Origin: Serratia marcescens
Lineage (GTDB): Bacteria > Pseudomonadota > Gammaproteobacteria > Enterobacterales > Enterobacteriaceae
DNA length: 64,000 nt
NCBI RefSeq assembly: GCF_029846115.1
Contig: NZ_JARVZZ010000001.1
Coordinates: forward strand, 2,170,001 to 2,234,000
Direction: 5' to 3'
Shown here: piece by piece, positions 45,661-50,204 of the stretch
Position numbering within the stretch: the stretch's first letter is position 1
How the letters are laid out: the number at the start of each line of letters is the position of its first letter
Position numbers and translations under genes: made by a program
Notes under the pieces: model-generated
The model's input: only the letters and a program-made list of their open reading frames with translations
The model's database searches: none
What the model was told of the DNA's origin: nothing

Positions 45661-46170
45661 ATGCAACTGAACAAAGTGCTGAAAGGGCTTCTGCTGGCAC
45701 TGCCAGTTCTGGCTGTAGCAGCTTGTAGTTCTAACAAAAGCGCGAACAACGACCAATCTGGTATGGGCGCTGGCACTGGTATGGAAAACGGCAGCAGCAA
45801 CCTGTCTTCCGAAGAACAAGCTCGTCTGCAGATGCAAGAACTGCAGAAGAACAACATTGTTTACTTCGGCCTGGACAAGTATGACGTAAGCTCCGAATTC
45901 GCTCAGATGCTGGACGCGCACGCTGCATTCCTGCGTAACAACCCGTCTTACAAAGTGACCGTTGAAGGCCACGCTGACGAACGCGGCACGCCGGAATACA
46001 ACATCGCTCTGGGTGAGCGCCGTGCTAACGCCGTTAAAATGTACCTGCAGGGTAAAGGCGTTTCCGCTGACCAGATCTCTATCGTTTCTTACGGTAAAGA
46101 AAAACCAGCAGTACTGGGCCACGACGAAGCGGCTTATGCTAAAAACCGTCGTGCCGTTCTGGTTTACTAA
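45661..46170 (+). CDS. pal: Peptidoglycan-associated lipoprotein Pal
   Basis: Pal is an outer-membrane lipoprotein that binds peptidoglycan and TolB. The 169-residue protein has a lipobox (LAVAAC, Cys22) and the OmpA-like domain with [26 protein letters not shown]. The ATG at 45661 has AAAGGAT/AAAGAA upstream and gives the right signal length; an ATG at 45634 would add nine residues before the signal. Confidence 0.98.
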
Positions 46171-46179
46171 GAGAATCGC

Positions 46180-46974
46180 ATGAACAGTAACTTCAGACGT
46201 CACCTGTTGAGTCTGTCGTTACTGGTTGGCGTAGCGGCCCCTTGGGCCGCTACTGCCCAAGCGCCAATCAGTAATGTCGGCTCCGGCTCGGTCGAAGACC
46301 GCGTCACCTCGCTTGAGCGCATCAGTAATGCTCAAGGCCAGCTTTTAAATCAACTCCAGCAACAACTCTCTGATAACCAACGCGACATTGATTCTCTCCG
46401 TGGGCAAATCCAGGAAAGCCAGTATCAGTTGAATCAGGTGGTTGAACGCCAGAAGCAAATCTATCAACAGATGGATAGCCTCAGCCAGGGCGGCGCTCAG
46501 AGCGCTTCTGCGGCCGCGGGCGCTGCCGGTGGGGCAGCCGCAGGCGCATCTTCCGATGCGGGCGGCAGCGCGCCTGCAGCCGCTTCTGCAACGCCGAGCG
46601 GCGGTGATGAGAACAGCGACTACAACGCCGCTGTTTCTCTGGCGCTGGAAAAAAAACAGTATGACCAGGCGATTTCCGCCTTTCAGTCCTTCGTAAAACA
46701 GTACCCGAAGTCTACCTACCAGCCTAACGCCAACTATTGGCTGGGCCAGTTGTTCTACAACAAGGGTAAAAAAGACGACGCGGCCTACTATTTTGCGGTG
46801 GTGGTGAAGAATTACGCTAAATCACCGAAGGCGCCGGACGCCATGTACAAGGTGGGTATCATCATGCAGGAGAAAGGGCAGGCCGATAAAGCCAAAGCCG
46901 TGTTCCAGCAGGTGATTAAACAATACCCAACCAGTGCGGCGGCCAAACAGGCGAAAAGTCGCGTAGGCGGTTAA
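46180..46974 (+). CDS. cpoB: Cell division coordinator CpoB (YbgF)
   Basis: CpoB coordinates peptidoglycan synthesis (PBP1B) with outer-membrane constriction through Tol-Pal. The 264-residue protein has a signal peptide (cleaved near ATAQA), an N-terminal coiled coil (residues 35-100, Gln-rich, trimerising), an Ala/Gly/Ser-rich linker (105-145) and a C-terminal TPR domain (YNAAVSLALEKKQYDQAI and two more repeats). Confidence 0.96.
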   Translation: MNSNFRRHLLSLSLLVGVAAPWAATAQAPISNVGSGSVEDRVTSLERISNAQGQLLNQLQQQLSDNQRDIDSLRGQIQESQYQLNQVVERQKQIYQQMDSLSQGGAQSASAAAGAAGGAAAGASSDAGGSAPAAASATPSGGDENSDYNAAVSLALEKKQYDQAISAFQSFVKQYPKSTYQPNANYWLGQLFYNKGKKDDAAYYFAVVVKNYAKSPKAPDAMYKVGIIMQEKGQADKAKAVFQQVIKQYPTSAAAKQAKSRVGG

Positions 46975-47152: not shown

Positions 47153-47228
47153 GGGTCGTTAGCTCAGTTGGTAGAGCAGTTGACTTTTAATCAATTGGTC
47201 GCAGGTTCGAATCCTGCACGACCCACCA
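47153..47228 (+). tRNA. lysT: tRNA-Lys (anticodon TTT), copy 1
   Basis: The 76-nt cloverleaf has acceptor stem GGGTCGT/ACGACCC, D-arm GCTCAGTTGGTAGAGC, anticodon loop CTTTTAA, T-arm GCAGG-TTCGAAT-CCTGC and an encoded CCA. It is the first gene of the operon, as in the E. coli lysT-valT-lysW group upstream of nadA. Confidence 0.97.
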
Positions 47229-47252
47229 ATTTTGAAGCAAGAAATGAAGTGG

Positions 47253-47330
47253 AATCGGGAAGGATAACATCACGAAGTGATGGCCCGTCAGGGCGAGGCC
47301 AAAGGCCGAGTCATCCTGCACGACCCACCA
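47253..47330 (+). ncRNA. Short rtT-like spacer element (A) with tRNA-Lys tail
   Basis: The spacer holds three small hairpins in a row: CATCAC-GAA-GTGATG, GCCC-GTCA-GGGC and GGCC-AAA-GGCC. They are followed by ATCCTGCACGACCCACCA, an exact copy of the last 18 nt of tRNA-Lys (47313-47330). It lacks the first hairpin and the GGTTCGA box of the other spacers. Confidence 0.75.
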
Positions 47331-47359
47331 ATTTCTGAAGTAGCAGTAACCACAACAGT

Positions 47360-47435
47360 GGGTGATTAGCTCAGTTGGTAGAGCATCTCCTTTACACGGA
47401 GGGGGTCGGCGGTTCGAGCCCGTCATCACCCACCA
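47360..47435 (+). tRNA. valT: tRNA-Val (anticodon TAC), copy 1
   Basis: The 76-nt cloverleaf has acceptor stem GGGTGAT/ATCACCC, anticodon loop TTTACAC, T-arm GGCGG-TTCGAGC-CCGTC and an encoded CCA. It is separated by only 7 nt from the next tRNA-Lys. Confidence 0.97.
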
Positions 47436-47442
47436 CTGTTAT

Positions 47443-47518
47443 GGGTCGTTAGCTCAGTTGGTAGAGCAGTTGACTTTTAATCAATTGGTCGCAGGTTCGA
47501 ATCCTGCACGACCCACCA
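47443..47518 (+). tRNA. lysW: tRNA-Lys (anticodon TTT), copy 2
   Basis: The sequence is identical to tRNA-Lys copy 1, with CCA encoded. It follows tRNA-Val by 7 nt. Confidence 0.97.
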
Positions 47519-47543
47519 TTATTTAAGAATGGCTGCGATAGAC

Positions 47544-47658
47544 AATCGTAAAGGATGAGAACCGTAAAGGTTCGAGTCTCGCGAAGCGAGACAACATCAC
47601 TCCGGTGATGGCCCGCAAGGGCGAGGCCAAAGGCCGAGTTATCCTGCACGACCCACCA
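47544..47658 (+). ncRNA. rtT-like spacer element B with tRNA-Lys tail
   Basis: After GGTTCGA come four hairpins: GTCTCGC-GAA-GCGAGAC, CATCAC-TCCG-GTGATG, GCCC-GCAA-GGGC and GGCC-AAA-GGCC. The element ends with the 18-nt tRNA-Lys tail ATCCTGCACGACCCACCA (47641-47658). It looks like a tRNA T-arm split by a hairpin cassette. It differs from element C at one base in the conserved part. Confidence 0.8.
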
Positions 47659-47703
47659 TTCTTTAAGAAAGAATGGCAGCTTCAGAATCGGTTTGATGTG
47701 GCA

Positions 47704-47753
47704 AAGTAAAGGTCCGAGTCGAGTACCCGTCGAGTTGTCCTGAACATCCCCAT
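47704..47753 (+). other. Degenerate copy of the spacer element
   Basis: GGTCCGAG (47711-47718) and TCGAGTTGTCCTGAACATCC resemble GGTTCGAG and CCGAGTTATCCTGCACGACC of elements B and C, but the hairpins are mostly lost and the tail is mutated. It appears to be a decayed element, with no intact tRNA following for 60 nt. Confidence 0.45.
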
Positions 47754-47814
47754 CCTTGTTTTCCGCGAGTCGGTTCCAATAGCCTATTCGCCATCAGCAG
47801 TAAACCACATCAGT

Positions 47815-47890
47815 GGGTCGTTAGCTCAGTTGGTAGAGCAGTTGACTTTTAATCAATTGGTCGCAGGTTCGAATCCTGCACGACCCACCA
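47815..47890 (+). tRNA. tRNA-Lys (anticodon TTT), copy 3
   Basis: The sequence is identical to the other tRNA-Lys copies, with CCA encoded. It is preceded by a degenerate spacer element and followed by spacer element C. Confidence 0.97.
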
Positions 47891-47923
47891 CGCTTTAATA
47901 GAGCAAGGTGTTAAATCGTCAGG

Positions 47924-48027
47924 ATGAGAACCGTAAAGGTTCGAGTCTCGCAAAGCGAGACAACATCACTCCGGTGATGGCCCGCAAGGGCGAGGCCAAA
48001 GGCCGAGTTATCCTGCACGACCCACCA
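47924..48027 (+). ncRNA. rtT-like spacer element C with tRNA-Lys tail
   Basis: It has the same plan as element B: AATCG start, GGTTCGA, four hairpins (the first is GTCTCGC-AAA-GCGAGAC) and the 18-nt tRNA-Lys tail (48010-48027). The near identity to B argues for recent duplication or gene conversion. Confidence 0.8.
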
Positions 48028-48063
48028 CTCTTTGAGAGTGAAAAATAGCAGTACCACAGCAGT

Positions 48064-48139
48064 GGGTGATTAGCTCAGTTGGTAGAGCATCTCCTTTACA
48101 CGGAGGGGGTCGGCGGTTCGAGCCCGTCATCACCCACCA
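48064..48139 (+). tRNA. tRNA-Val (anticodon TAC), copy 2
   Basis: The sequence is identical to tRNA-Val copy 1, with CCA encoded. Confidence 0.97.
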
Positions 48140-48145
48140 CACTGC

Positions 48146-48221
48146 GGGTCGTTAGCTCAGTTGGTAGAGCAGTTGACTTTTAATCAATTGGTCGCAGGTT
48201 CGAATCCTGCACGACCCACCA
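48146..48221 (+). tRNA. tRNA-Lys (anticodon TTT), copy 4 (last)
   Basis: The sequence is identical to the other tRNA-Lys copies and lies 6 nt after tRNA-Val. It is followed directly by the 199-bp tandem repeat array, which begins right after its CCA. Confidence 0.97.
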
Positions 48222-48227
48222 ATTCAG

Positions 48228-48253
48228 AAAAAAGCGCCTTTTGGCGCTTTTTT
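48228..48253 (+). terminator. Terminator in repeat unit 1
   Basis: Six A and GCGCC pair with GGCGC and six T over a TTTT loop. It comes 7 nt after the last tRNA-Lys. Confidence 0.92.
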
Positions 48254-48426
48254 CGCATCTGCGCCACCAGACTCTACTTTATCTTCTTGCTAACAGAGTT
48301 CACCGAGTCGTGCGGGTGAGATCCTGCGCTCAGGTTCGAGCATCGCGCAGCGATACGACAACGCGCAGCGTTGCCCGCAGGGTGAGGCCACAGGCCGAAT
48401 CAATCCTGCACGACCCACCAATTCAG

Positions 48427-48452
48427 AAAAAAGCGCCTTTTGGCGCTTTTTT
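48427..48452 (+). terminator. Terminator in repeat unit 2
   Basis: Exact copy of the unit 1 terminator, 199 bp downstream. Confidence 0.9.
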
Positions 48453-48625
48453 CGCATCTGCGCCACCAGACTCTACTTTACCCTCTTGCTAACAGAGTTC
48501 ACCGAGTCGTGCGGGTGAGATCCTGCGCTCAGGTTCGAGCATCGCGCAGCGATACGACAACGCGCAGCGTTGCCCGCAGGGTGAGGCCACAGGCCGAATC
48601 AATCCTGCACGACCCACCAATTCAG

Positions 48626-48651
48626 AAAAAAGCGCCTTTTGGCGCTTTTTT
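48626..48651 (+). terminator. Terminator in repeat unit 3
   Basis: Exact copy of the unit 1 terminator, 398 bp downstream. Confidence 0.9.
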
Positions 48652-48824
48652 CGCATCTGCGCCACCAGACTCTACTTTACCCTCTTGCTAACAGAGTTCA
48701 CCGAGTCGTGCGGGTGAGATCCTGCGCTCAGGTTCGAGCATCGCGCAGCGATACGACAACGCGCAGCGTTGCCCGCAGGGTGAGGCCACAGGCCGAATCA
48801 ATCCTGCACGACCCACCAATTCAG

Positions 48825-48850
48825 AAAAAAGCGCCTTTTGGCGCTTTTTT
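48825..48850 (+). terminator. Terminator in the partial fourth repeat
   Basis: Exact copy of the unit 1 terminator at the end of the array. Sequence similarity to the repeat stops about 10 nt later. Confidence 0.9.
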
Positions 48851-49062
48851 CGCATCTGCGTCATCGCAATCTGAATCCGCTGCTTTCTCGTTTCAACACC
48901 GCACCGATCATCCTCACGCTGTTCTCTGAACGGCTATACGGTCTCGTCAGGCCATTATCCGCTGTGAGCTGTGCAGCCACTGTCTGTATTTTTTAATTCA
49001 TTAAACAATAGGTGCGCAAATATGAAAATATCAGCGGACTTTTCGCGCGGTTTTAGGTATTT

Positions 49063-49142: not shown

Positions 49143-50204
49143 ATGAGTGAAATGTTTGATGTCAATGCGGCGGTGTACCCCTTCCCGCCTAAACCGGTTC
49201 CGCTGGACGTAGCCGAAAAAGCCTTTTATCGCGAGAAGATCAAAACCCTGCTCAAGCAGCGCAATGCGGTGATGGTCGCCCACTATTATACCGATCCGGA
49301 AATCCAGGCGCTGGCGGAAGAAACCGGCGGCTGCGTGGCGGATTCGCTGGAAATGGCGCGCTTCGGCAGCGCCCATCCGGCTTCCACGCTGTTGGTGGCC
49401 GGCGTGCGCTTCATGGGGGAAACCGCCAAGATCCTCAGCCCGGAAAAGCAGGTGCTGATGCCGACGCTGTTTGCCGAATGTTCGCTGGATCTGGGCTGCC
49501 CGGAAGAGGAGTTTCATGCGTTTTGCGACAGCCACCCCGATCGCACCGTGGTGGTCTATGCGAACACCTCGGCGGCGGTCAAAGCGCGCGCCGACTGGGT
49601 GGTCACTTCCAGCATCGCCGTTGAGCTGATCGAACACCTGGACAGCCTGGGCGAGAAGATCATTTGGGCGCCGGATCGCCATCTCGGCAGCTACGTGCAG
49701 AAGCAGACCGGCGCCGACGTGCTGTGCTGGCAAGGCGCCTGCATTGTCCATGACGAGTTCAAGACTCAGGCGCTGCGGCGCATGAAGGCGCTTTATCCGC
49801 AGGCGGCCATCCTGGTGCATCCCGAATCGCCACAGGCGGTGGTTGAGTTGGCGGATGCGGTGGGATCGACCAGCCAACTGATTCAGGCGGCGAAAACATT
49901 GCCGCATCAACAGCTGATCGTCGCCACCGATCGCGGTATCTTTTACAAGATGCAGCAGGCCTGCCCGGACAAGGAGCTGTTCGAAGCGCCAACCGCCGGA
50001 GAAGGGGCGACCTGTCGCAGCTGCGCGCATTGCCCGTGGATGGCGATGAATGGCCTGAAGGCGATTGCTGAAGGGCTGGAGCAGGGGGGCGCGCAGCATG
50101 AGATCCACGTGGACGCCGCGCTGCGTGAGAAGGCCCTGGTGCCGCTGAACCGCATGCTGGATTTCGCCGCTCAGCTTAAGATGCAGGTTAAAGGCAACGC
50201 TTAA
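49143..50204 (+). CDS. nadA: Quinolinate synthase NadA
   Basis: NadA uses a 4Fe-4S cluster to condense iminoaspartate with dihydroxyacetone phosphate to quinolinate in NAD synthesis. The 353-residue protein shows [51 protein letters not shown] and the cysteine-rich [18 protein letters not shown], which gives cluster ligands. Its place after the lysT-valT tRNA operon and before pnuC matches E. coli. Confidence 0.97.

Follow-up and report, generated by a model that had tools for sequence, protein, structure and literature searches.

The repeats that follow the last gene of a lysine/valine tRNA operon in Serratia marcescens are, as judged by covariance-model matches, cassettes of a known family, RtT (RF00391), and each copy carries a replica of the end of its host tRNA that probably lets RtT come, go and multiply without damage to the gene. 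The unusual point appears to be a family-wide tendency of RtT to match the 3' end of its host, together with hints of a more general mobile body, both drawn from comparisons of sequence. We consider it rather likely that RtT is best read as a seamless, probably once-mobile cassette.

RtT units follow each tRNA-Lys gene of the operon

Within the 64,000-nucleotide stretch of DNA that we analyzed (the window, whose own numbering is used below), ARAGORN identified six tRNA genes in the order Lys, Val, Lys, Lys, Val, Lys at 47153-48221, upstream of nadA (49143-50204; TIGR00550, 407 bits) and in the same genomic place as the E. coli operon lysT-valT-lysW-valZ-lysYZQ. A CpoB/ybgF RNA thermometer (RF02782, 166 bits) lies at 46071-46209. 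RtT follows each of the four tRNA-Lys genes, and all six units lie downstream of tRNA-Lys on the same strand. The first tRNA-Lys(UUU) gene (47153..47228, also matched by RF00005) is followed by a short unit at 47229..47330 with an 18-nt copy of the tRNA-Lys 3' end (47313-47330); its RF00391 match of 44.9 bits, against a curated gathering score of 45 bits, spans 47160-47330 and thereby overlaps the tRNA gene, and a body-only model matched the unit at C1:2217204-2217312. The second (47443..47518) and third (47815..47890) tRNA-Lys(UUU) genes are followed by internal units at 47519..47658 (71.1 bits at 47534-47658; 18-nt tail copy at 47641-47658) and 47891..48027 (69.3 bits at 47904-48027; 18-nt tail copy at 48010-48027). 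The spacer after the former, 47659-47814, is long and by eye resembles the remnant of another, decayed RtT unit. The tRNA-Val(UAC) gene at 47360..47435 has no space for a unit, since the next tRNA-Lys begins only 7 nt on; after the tRNA-Val(UAC) gene at 48064..48139 this distance is 6 nt.

The fourth tRNA-Lys(UUU) gene (48146..48221) hosts the tandem array. Three terminal units of 199 bp (48222..48420, 48421..48619 and 48620..48818), each consisting of trailer, terminator-like hairpin, RtT and a 19-nt tail copy, scored 65.5 bits apiece (at 48296-48420, 48495-48619 and 48694-48818), and sequence comparison revealed a partial fourth copy of 42 identical nucleotides at 48819..48860, limited to the trailer and terminator-like hairpin. 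No difference separates units 2 and 3, and unit 1 departs from both at 2 positions; Tandem Repeats Finder reported 3.3 copies at 99% (score 1302). The sequence AATCCTGCACGACCCACCA forms the 3' end of all four tRNA-Lys genes and of each full terminal unit (starts 48402, 48601 and 48800), and all six units carry a 3'-end copy of their own tRNA, exact over 19 nt in the three terminal units and 18 nt long in the rest. Five matches in the window thus reach the gathering score, with E from 5.7e-12 to 1.4e-10. These results bear out the original prediction, which had described three 199-bp direct repeats and a partial fourth directly after the last tRNA-Lys (48222-48860), with the final 19 nt of that tRNA reproduced exactly at the end of every full unit, and had proposed an element of the same type as rtT, a proposal that the five covariance-model matches at or above gathering support. 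It saw the terminal array alone and overlooked the three units upstream.

The same prediction placed an intrinsic terminator and four hairpins in each unit, and this held in part. A hairpin with flanking A and T runs was found by eye at 48228..48253 (core GCGCC-TTTT-GGCGC-TTTTTT at 48234-48253) and recurs at +199, +398 and +597, so that each terminal unit has one; it was not listed by a terminator scan of the window, in our view because its flanking A and T runs can pair with each other and were taken for stem. In the predicted fold of unit 1, the copied tRNA end closes an outer helix, P1, whose 5' arm GTCGTGCGGG (48307..48316) is complementary to the copied tRNA 3' end and whose 3' arm ATCCTGCACGAC (48403..48414) lies within that copy. 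The predicted fold of 48260-48420 was modestly better than that of shuffled sequences (z = -1.44, with 12 of 200 shuffles equally low). An assembly artefact is an unlikely source of the array: another genome of the genus (G383) has two units at the same operon, both ending in CCC, and the second Lys operon of the present genome has one.

RtT units occur at many tRNA types and mostly end in copies of their hosts

Across the present genome, RF00391 gave 18 matches at E <= 0.001, hosted by tRNA-Lys (two operons), tRNA-Tyr (two loci), Pro(ggg), Pro(tgg), Ser(gga) and Arg(acg). Several of these units end in a copy of the 3' end of their own tRNA, the Tyr copies being less exact or decayed. In a scan independent of Rfam, the last 19 nt of all 86 ARAGORN tRNAs were sought within 1.2 kb downstream. 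Such a copy with at most 2 mismatches was present for 11 of the 86, all adjoining RtT, and the other 75 had at least 5 mismatches; two tRNAs among those with 5 mismatches are tRNA-Phe genes carrying decayed, inverted units. The first three tRNA-Lys genes of the window share tail copies located further down the operon.

RtT matches were present in 27 of 148 genomes drawn evenly from the order and in 171 of 294 drawn evenly from the family. Among the matchless genomes of the family, 17 of the 20 listed are small (0.4-2.4 Mb), and there were 103 further matchless ones. To describe the units themselves, we compiled 206 hits from 33 genomes (the present genome, 12 from the family and a further 20), each picked for having matches. 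An upstream same-strand tRNA was found for 204 of these hits, the two exceptions being one hit at a contig end and one weak hit (32 bits). The nearest upstream tRNAs were Lys (65), Tyr (43), Ser(gga) (43), Pro(tgg) (17), Arg(acg) (15), Pro(cgg) (8), Pro(ggg) (5), Ser(tga) (3), Glu (3), Gln (1) and Ser(gct) (1, with an Arg-like tail). The conjecture that the element had arisen on, or moved to, tRNA-Lys in this operon is therefore right about the kinship with rtT and too local about the host: tRNA-Lys hosts RtT in 17 of these 33 genomes, and nine further tRNA types serve as hosts elsewhere. The many host types likewise rule out a separate family confined to tRNA-Lys.

The 19-nt tail of the host was reproduced with at most 1 mismatch in 156 of the 204 units (123 of the 151 above gathering); the other 48 had at least 2 mismatches, and some of these tails are wholly decayed. 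Since 82 tails match at all 19 positions and 59 differ solely at the first, the copy is 18-19 nt long. Median mismatch to the unit's own tRNA was 0-2, except for Ser(tga) (5, from three hits) and the single Ser(gct), and median mismatch to other tRNA types was 4-10, except within the Pro types, within the Ser types and for the Arg-like tail. By position in the array, tails with at most 1 mismatch made up 53 of 59 inner, 25 of 43 last and 78 of 102 single units. Six tails end in CCC instead of CCA, so an intact CCA is at times dispensable. This change of the final A to C, with the rest of the tail kept, was seen at G000:C1:3734738, 3734911 and 4589466, in G150, G157 and G092, and in G383 (L337). 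In one tRNA-Lys unit (L278 1580-1717, G076), one body seems by eye to be nested within another.

With the 199-bp unit as query, we found no phage matches and three plasmid matches, all on replicons typed as non-mobilizable, and the one plasmid match that we inspected was a chromosome-like stretch from tolB-pal-cpoB to nadA; by this query, the unit is not borne by phages or mobile plasmids. A 489-kb Providencia 'plasmid' (L080; NZ_OU659131.1 101089-106203) carries tolB-pal-cpoB, tRNA-Lys, RtT and nadA in a chromosome-like arrangement; in its annotation, an aminoglycoside 6-adenylyltransferase gene separates RtT from nadA. YrlA (Y RNA-like) matches below the gathering score of 69 cover tRNA-Lys and spacer at L077 2270-2410 (44.0 bits) and L080 2143-2288 (35.9 bits).

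The frame of a unit tends to match its host

The copied stretch runs from the end of the T-loop through the 3' strands of the T-stem and acceptor stem to the CCA end, and P1 is predicted to form by pairing between this stretch and the 5' part of the unit. We compared P1 duplex energies with own and foreign tails for 148 units of 8 tRNA types whose tails have at most 2 mismatches. On mean energy, the own tail was best for Tyr (-16.3), Ser(gga) (-17.3), Lys (-10.8), Pro(ggg) (-12.7) and Glu (-20.1), and some other tail was better for Arg(acg), Pro(tgg) and Pro(cgg); counted per unit, the own tail gave the lowest energy in just 79 of the 148.

A similar picture emerged when the 5' part of the unit was scored against the reverse complement of the last 33 nt of the host. 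Own-host scores exceeded the next best for Lys (12.6 vs at most 9.3 for other hosts), Tyr (15.3 vs 11.1), Ser(gga) (14.5 vs 9.9), Glu (16.0 vs 8.2) and Pro(ggg) (15.0 vs 13.3). There was no useful host difference in this score for Arg (7.8 vs 7.3 for the next), Pro(tgg) or Pro(cgg), and the left arms of Pro(tgg) units match Pro(cgg) better than their own host. The five letters that precede the conserved TTCGA box agreed with the host T-stem at 4.4 of 5 positions for Lys and 5.0 for Pro(tgg), and less well for Ser(gga), at 3.5. As the arms and T-stem letters match the host, a unit can be described approximately as an inverted copy of the host 3' end, a first part of a direct copy, the body and a second part of the direct copy. 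In sum, the right-hand copy agrees with the local host tRNA at most of the loci compared, as does the left arm in the majority of host types.

The direct copy often extends beyond the tRNA. In 80 of 144 arrays, internal arrays included, the 40 nt after the last unit resembled the 40 nt after the tRNA more closely than did 95% of control pairs, and at many operon ends the direct copy runs on through the host trailer and terminator. Such an extension explains why the window holds a partial fourth copy.

The body is conserved in structure and appears mostly bound to its locus

Inside the host-derived frame lies the body, a hairpin cluster of approximately 60-80 nt. In an alignment of 30 different bodies, one from the window among them, 81.0% of cells in the body helices were paired, compared with 68.8% in shuffles, under a structure that we named by hand from the known hairpins, a choice that leans towards that structure. 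Two-sided changes occurred in 16 of 20 body pairs, and none of 500 shuffles reached the observed covariation on any of five measures. Structures slid along the same alignment paired at 29-40%, and an automatically derived structure yielded 3 pairs and no covariation. The shared body rules out independent duplications without common ancestry.

We also built a tree of 63 bodies from 67 columns, after removal of host-matched columns; many of its forks are poorly resolved. Host amino acid changed 9 times on this tree, compared with a mean of 33.1 after shuffling, and genome label changed 49 times. From the small number of host changes relative to genome-label changes, RtT elements look mostly old and locus-bound, with few changes of host, and the tree does not show active movement. 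The idea of a recent move to tRNA-Lys in this operon fits poorly with such a history.

Whole cassettes are present or absent in E. coli

Next, we compared the lysT operon among 12 E. coli strains, namely K-12, Ecol_316 (the best search match) and 10 of the 25 strains in a listing chosen for spread. The RefSeq record of Ecol_316 has three RtT annotated after the last tRNA-Lys, and the K-12 operon contains five RtT matches above 45 bits, none of them annotated by RefSeq. All 12 strains have the seven tRNA genes. The gap after each of the first four tRNA-Lys genes takes one of two discrete lengths (135 or 35, 149 or 51, 146 or 48, and 132 or 33 nt), the long one occurring in 8, 5, 10 and 2 strains by slot; 25 of the 48 slot-states are therefore filled and 23 empty, where five slot-3 units with a tail mismatch (in GDAR2-2, 2017.15.01CC, AMSHJX01, YZLc4-1 and 2018-01-1CC) were classed as filled on the basis of gap length. 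In filled slots, what comes after the unit equals the sequence after the tRNA in empty slots save for scattered bases. In the terminal slot, exact tails gave no unit in 5 strains, one in 4, two in 2 and three in 1, and 2 of the 12 strains have no unit anywhere in the lysT operon. Whole cassettes are thus present or absent with clean junctions, the tRNA and spacer being intact.

Because each slot keeps its own unit sequence, repeated loss explains the E. coli pattern. We saw no gain of a cassette among the 12 strains, whose pattern fits deletion alone. The array also varies within the genus of the window, from the two units of G383 to an internal-type unit that is joined directly to the terminator in G168. 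A 175-bp tandem-repeat difference assigned to rtT RNA between Salmonella genomes appears in a table of an earlier study (PMC2658671).

Bodies also occur away from the usual tRNA hosts

Running the body-only model on 18 genomes gave matches outside the 206, part of which we inspected as 30 stretches and two further loci. Of the 30 stretches, 11 held additional units behind a Lys, Ser or Arg tRNA, and the others held bodies in the following places: 5 at tRNA-Phe, 8 at 5S rRNA (one of them, L280, assigned by its frame alone, the 5S lying off the contig) and 6 with neither.

Bodies in reverse orientation follow tRNA-Phe at L213 and L214 (both in the present genome), L277 and L282 (G168), L328 and L331 (G131) and L334 (G172), and their frames are copies, faithful or decayed, of the 3' end and trailer of tRNA-Phe. 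At three of the seven (L277, L328 and L334) the downstream stretch contains the final 17 nt of the tRNA without mismatch, at three others an 11-nt piece, and at one just 7 nt. An AATCC box in the T-loop was rejected as a requirement for hosts: tRNA-Phe hosts are without it, and the Rfam model itself favours that sequence.

Units after 5S rRNA included L281 (G194), L324 and L326 (G092), L323 (G148), and L283 and L286 (G250). Those of G194 and G092 have copies of the 5S end and trailer that are 26, 17 and 19 nt long, where shuffles reached maxima of 10-12. The inverted arm scored above all 300 shuffles in 4 of the seven 5S cases tested (L279 was left out, its 5S being cut by the contig end), L323 among them, which has no tail copy; the three G250 cases show weak or mismatched forms of the frame only.

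The six bodies at neither tRNA nor 5S rRNA lie in G161, G119 and G182. Two of them, both in G182, sit in ERIC repeats (L335 1366-1706 and L336 1178-1517). The L335 ERIC is broken after position 40 by 78 bp that overlap the body match, and later again by 157 bp; the L336 ERIC also flanks a body-model match. The other four lone bodies (L284, L285, L332 and L333) gave no ERIC match. By eye, the flanks of these four appear palindromic. The links to 5S rRNA, to ERIC and to inverted copies come from few loci and stand as hints.

Discussion

Taken together, these observations favor the cassette, whose working may be outlined as follows. The direct repeats would serve as the substrate for its multiplication and deletion, so that loss of a cassette would leave the tRNA gene unbroken. 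In the transcript, P1 with its CCA end would resemble the 3' end of a tRNA and could be trimmed by the ordinary tRNA 3' maturation enzymes, releasing a separate RNA that ends in CCA. The annotation of RttR in E. coli K-12 (1287066-1287236), which starts at the 8th nucleotide beyond tyrV, fits such tRNA-like trimming, since it ends exactly on the A of the CCA that closes the unit. We infer that the body was once mobile from its occurrence alone, in ERIC, after 5S rRNA and, reversed, after tRNA-Phe. Counted against the cassette are the terminal units, which are preceded by a terminator-like hairpin and whose transcription may be slight, and two Actinobacillus RtT RNAs that one report places upstream of tRNA genes (PMC4986893). 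The same side includes the six tails in CCC, the 48 tails with at least 2 mismatches, the lowest P1 energy falling to the own tail in just 79 of 148 units, the locus-bound descent in the tree, the absence of gains in E. coli and the modest fold of the window unit. A broader version of the proposal is possible but doubtful: the RtT body would be a mobile hairpin cluster of approximately 70 nt that settles, in either orientation, inside sequence that is palindromic or forms hairpins, such as ERIC. At genes for stable RNAs (ten tRNA types, tRNA-Phe and 5S rRNA), it would gain an inverted as well as a direct copy of the host 3' end, together with the trailer and terminator, and would so be a self-customising insertion camouflaged as a tRNA or 5S 3' end, invisible to RNA processing and removable without a scar.

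Two other explanations account for parts of the same evidence. The host-matched frame might be a by-product of DNA copying, with gene conversion equalising the direct copies and template switching in an imperfect palindrome rewriting the left arm, so that the frame would arise without selection at the RNA level. The left arm can indeed match the reverse complement of the T-arm including its loop letters, over 13 nt (GATTCGAACCTGC) in four Lys units, and the duplication of trailers and terminators is left unexplained by pairing alone; yet most left arms, aligned by eye, mismatch the loop part, with GAG in place of TCG, and the body helices covary though they are not host-derived. We regard this explanation as rather unlikely, and it is compatible with the cassette. 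A little less probable still is that the excised RtT RNAs are dedicated regulators acting in trans, in the stringent response or as sponges, with the tRNA-like end a selected signal for processing or stability. Strong covariation in the body helices, the annotation of RttR as a small RNA in K-12 and, in one paper, Northern signals for two Actinobacillus RtT RNAs with a cited modulation of the stringent response (PMC4986893) would suit such regulators. Against them stand the range from zero to several units per slot in E. coli, including the 2 of 12 strains that are unit-free in the lysT operon (the count covers this operon only), the inverted bodies after tRNA-Phe, and a table entry for RttR at 97 +/- 9% with no effect recorded (PMC4606813).

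Simple local tandem duplication of a tRNA 3' end and spacer, independent at each tRNA and with incidental hairpins, would account for units that are tandem and carry local sequence, but the bodies are homologous between hosts, being found by one covariance model, and also occur away from tRNA genes; we consider it highly improbable. Host matching in most copies, for many hosts in both arms, combined with clean coming and going at tRNA-Lys in E. coli, makes RtT a testable system, beyond a curiosity, and raises the question of how a repeat can persist in operons of important stable RNAs while leaving them intact, and whether it is the maturation of tRNA 3' ends that allows this. If true, the links to 5S rRNA, ERIC and inverted copies would unite repeat families that are usually kept apart.

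Relation to known systems

RtT was recognised decades ago and is most familiar from a single operon. Sponges of the 3'ETS-leuZ type are like the proposed RtT RNA in being cut from a tRNA operon transcript, and differ from it in that they are not known to be repeated or to carry a copy of a tRNA end. The literature that we searched names no accepted function for RtT, and an effect of E. coli rtT on the stringent response is reported, as cited in PMC4986893.

Among other repeats, Wilson and Sharp reportedly described inserts in ERIC in 2006. The ERIC and RU-1 inserts resemble RtT in that the L335 ERIC carries a 78-bp piece overlapping the body match and that ERIC flanks the match at L336, and they are unlike the units of the window in having no tRNA frame; the kinship to RtT was seen in two loci only. 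One article had already noted rtT-like elements outside tRNA operons in Enterobacteria, within BIMEs, and treats them as attenuators upstream of gatY, rbfA and similar genes (PMC2965389).

The lysT operon of E. coli shares with the window its position between cpoB and nadA, units after tRNA-Lys and a terminator within the terminal unit. In contrast to the window, its internal units measure 98-100 bp and are without P2 and P3 by our own reading of the sequences, and RefSeq annotates RtT at the terminal slot alone among the 12 regions, with none in K-12. The rttR/tyrT repeats of E. coli likewise form a tandem array directly after a tRNA, each unit ending in 18-19 nt of that tRNA, and K-12 tyrT has four RtT matches in the same layout, with a unit that we counted as 178 bp, the length that the original prediction had named. 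Compared with K-12 tyrT, the array in the window has tRNA-Lys as its host, a longer terminal unit (199 bp vs 178), the terminator-like hairpin of the operon inside the unit, and lower scores (65-71 vs 133-138 bits).
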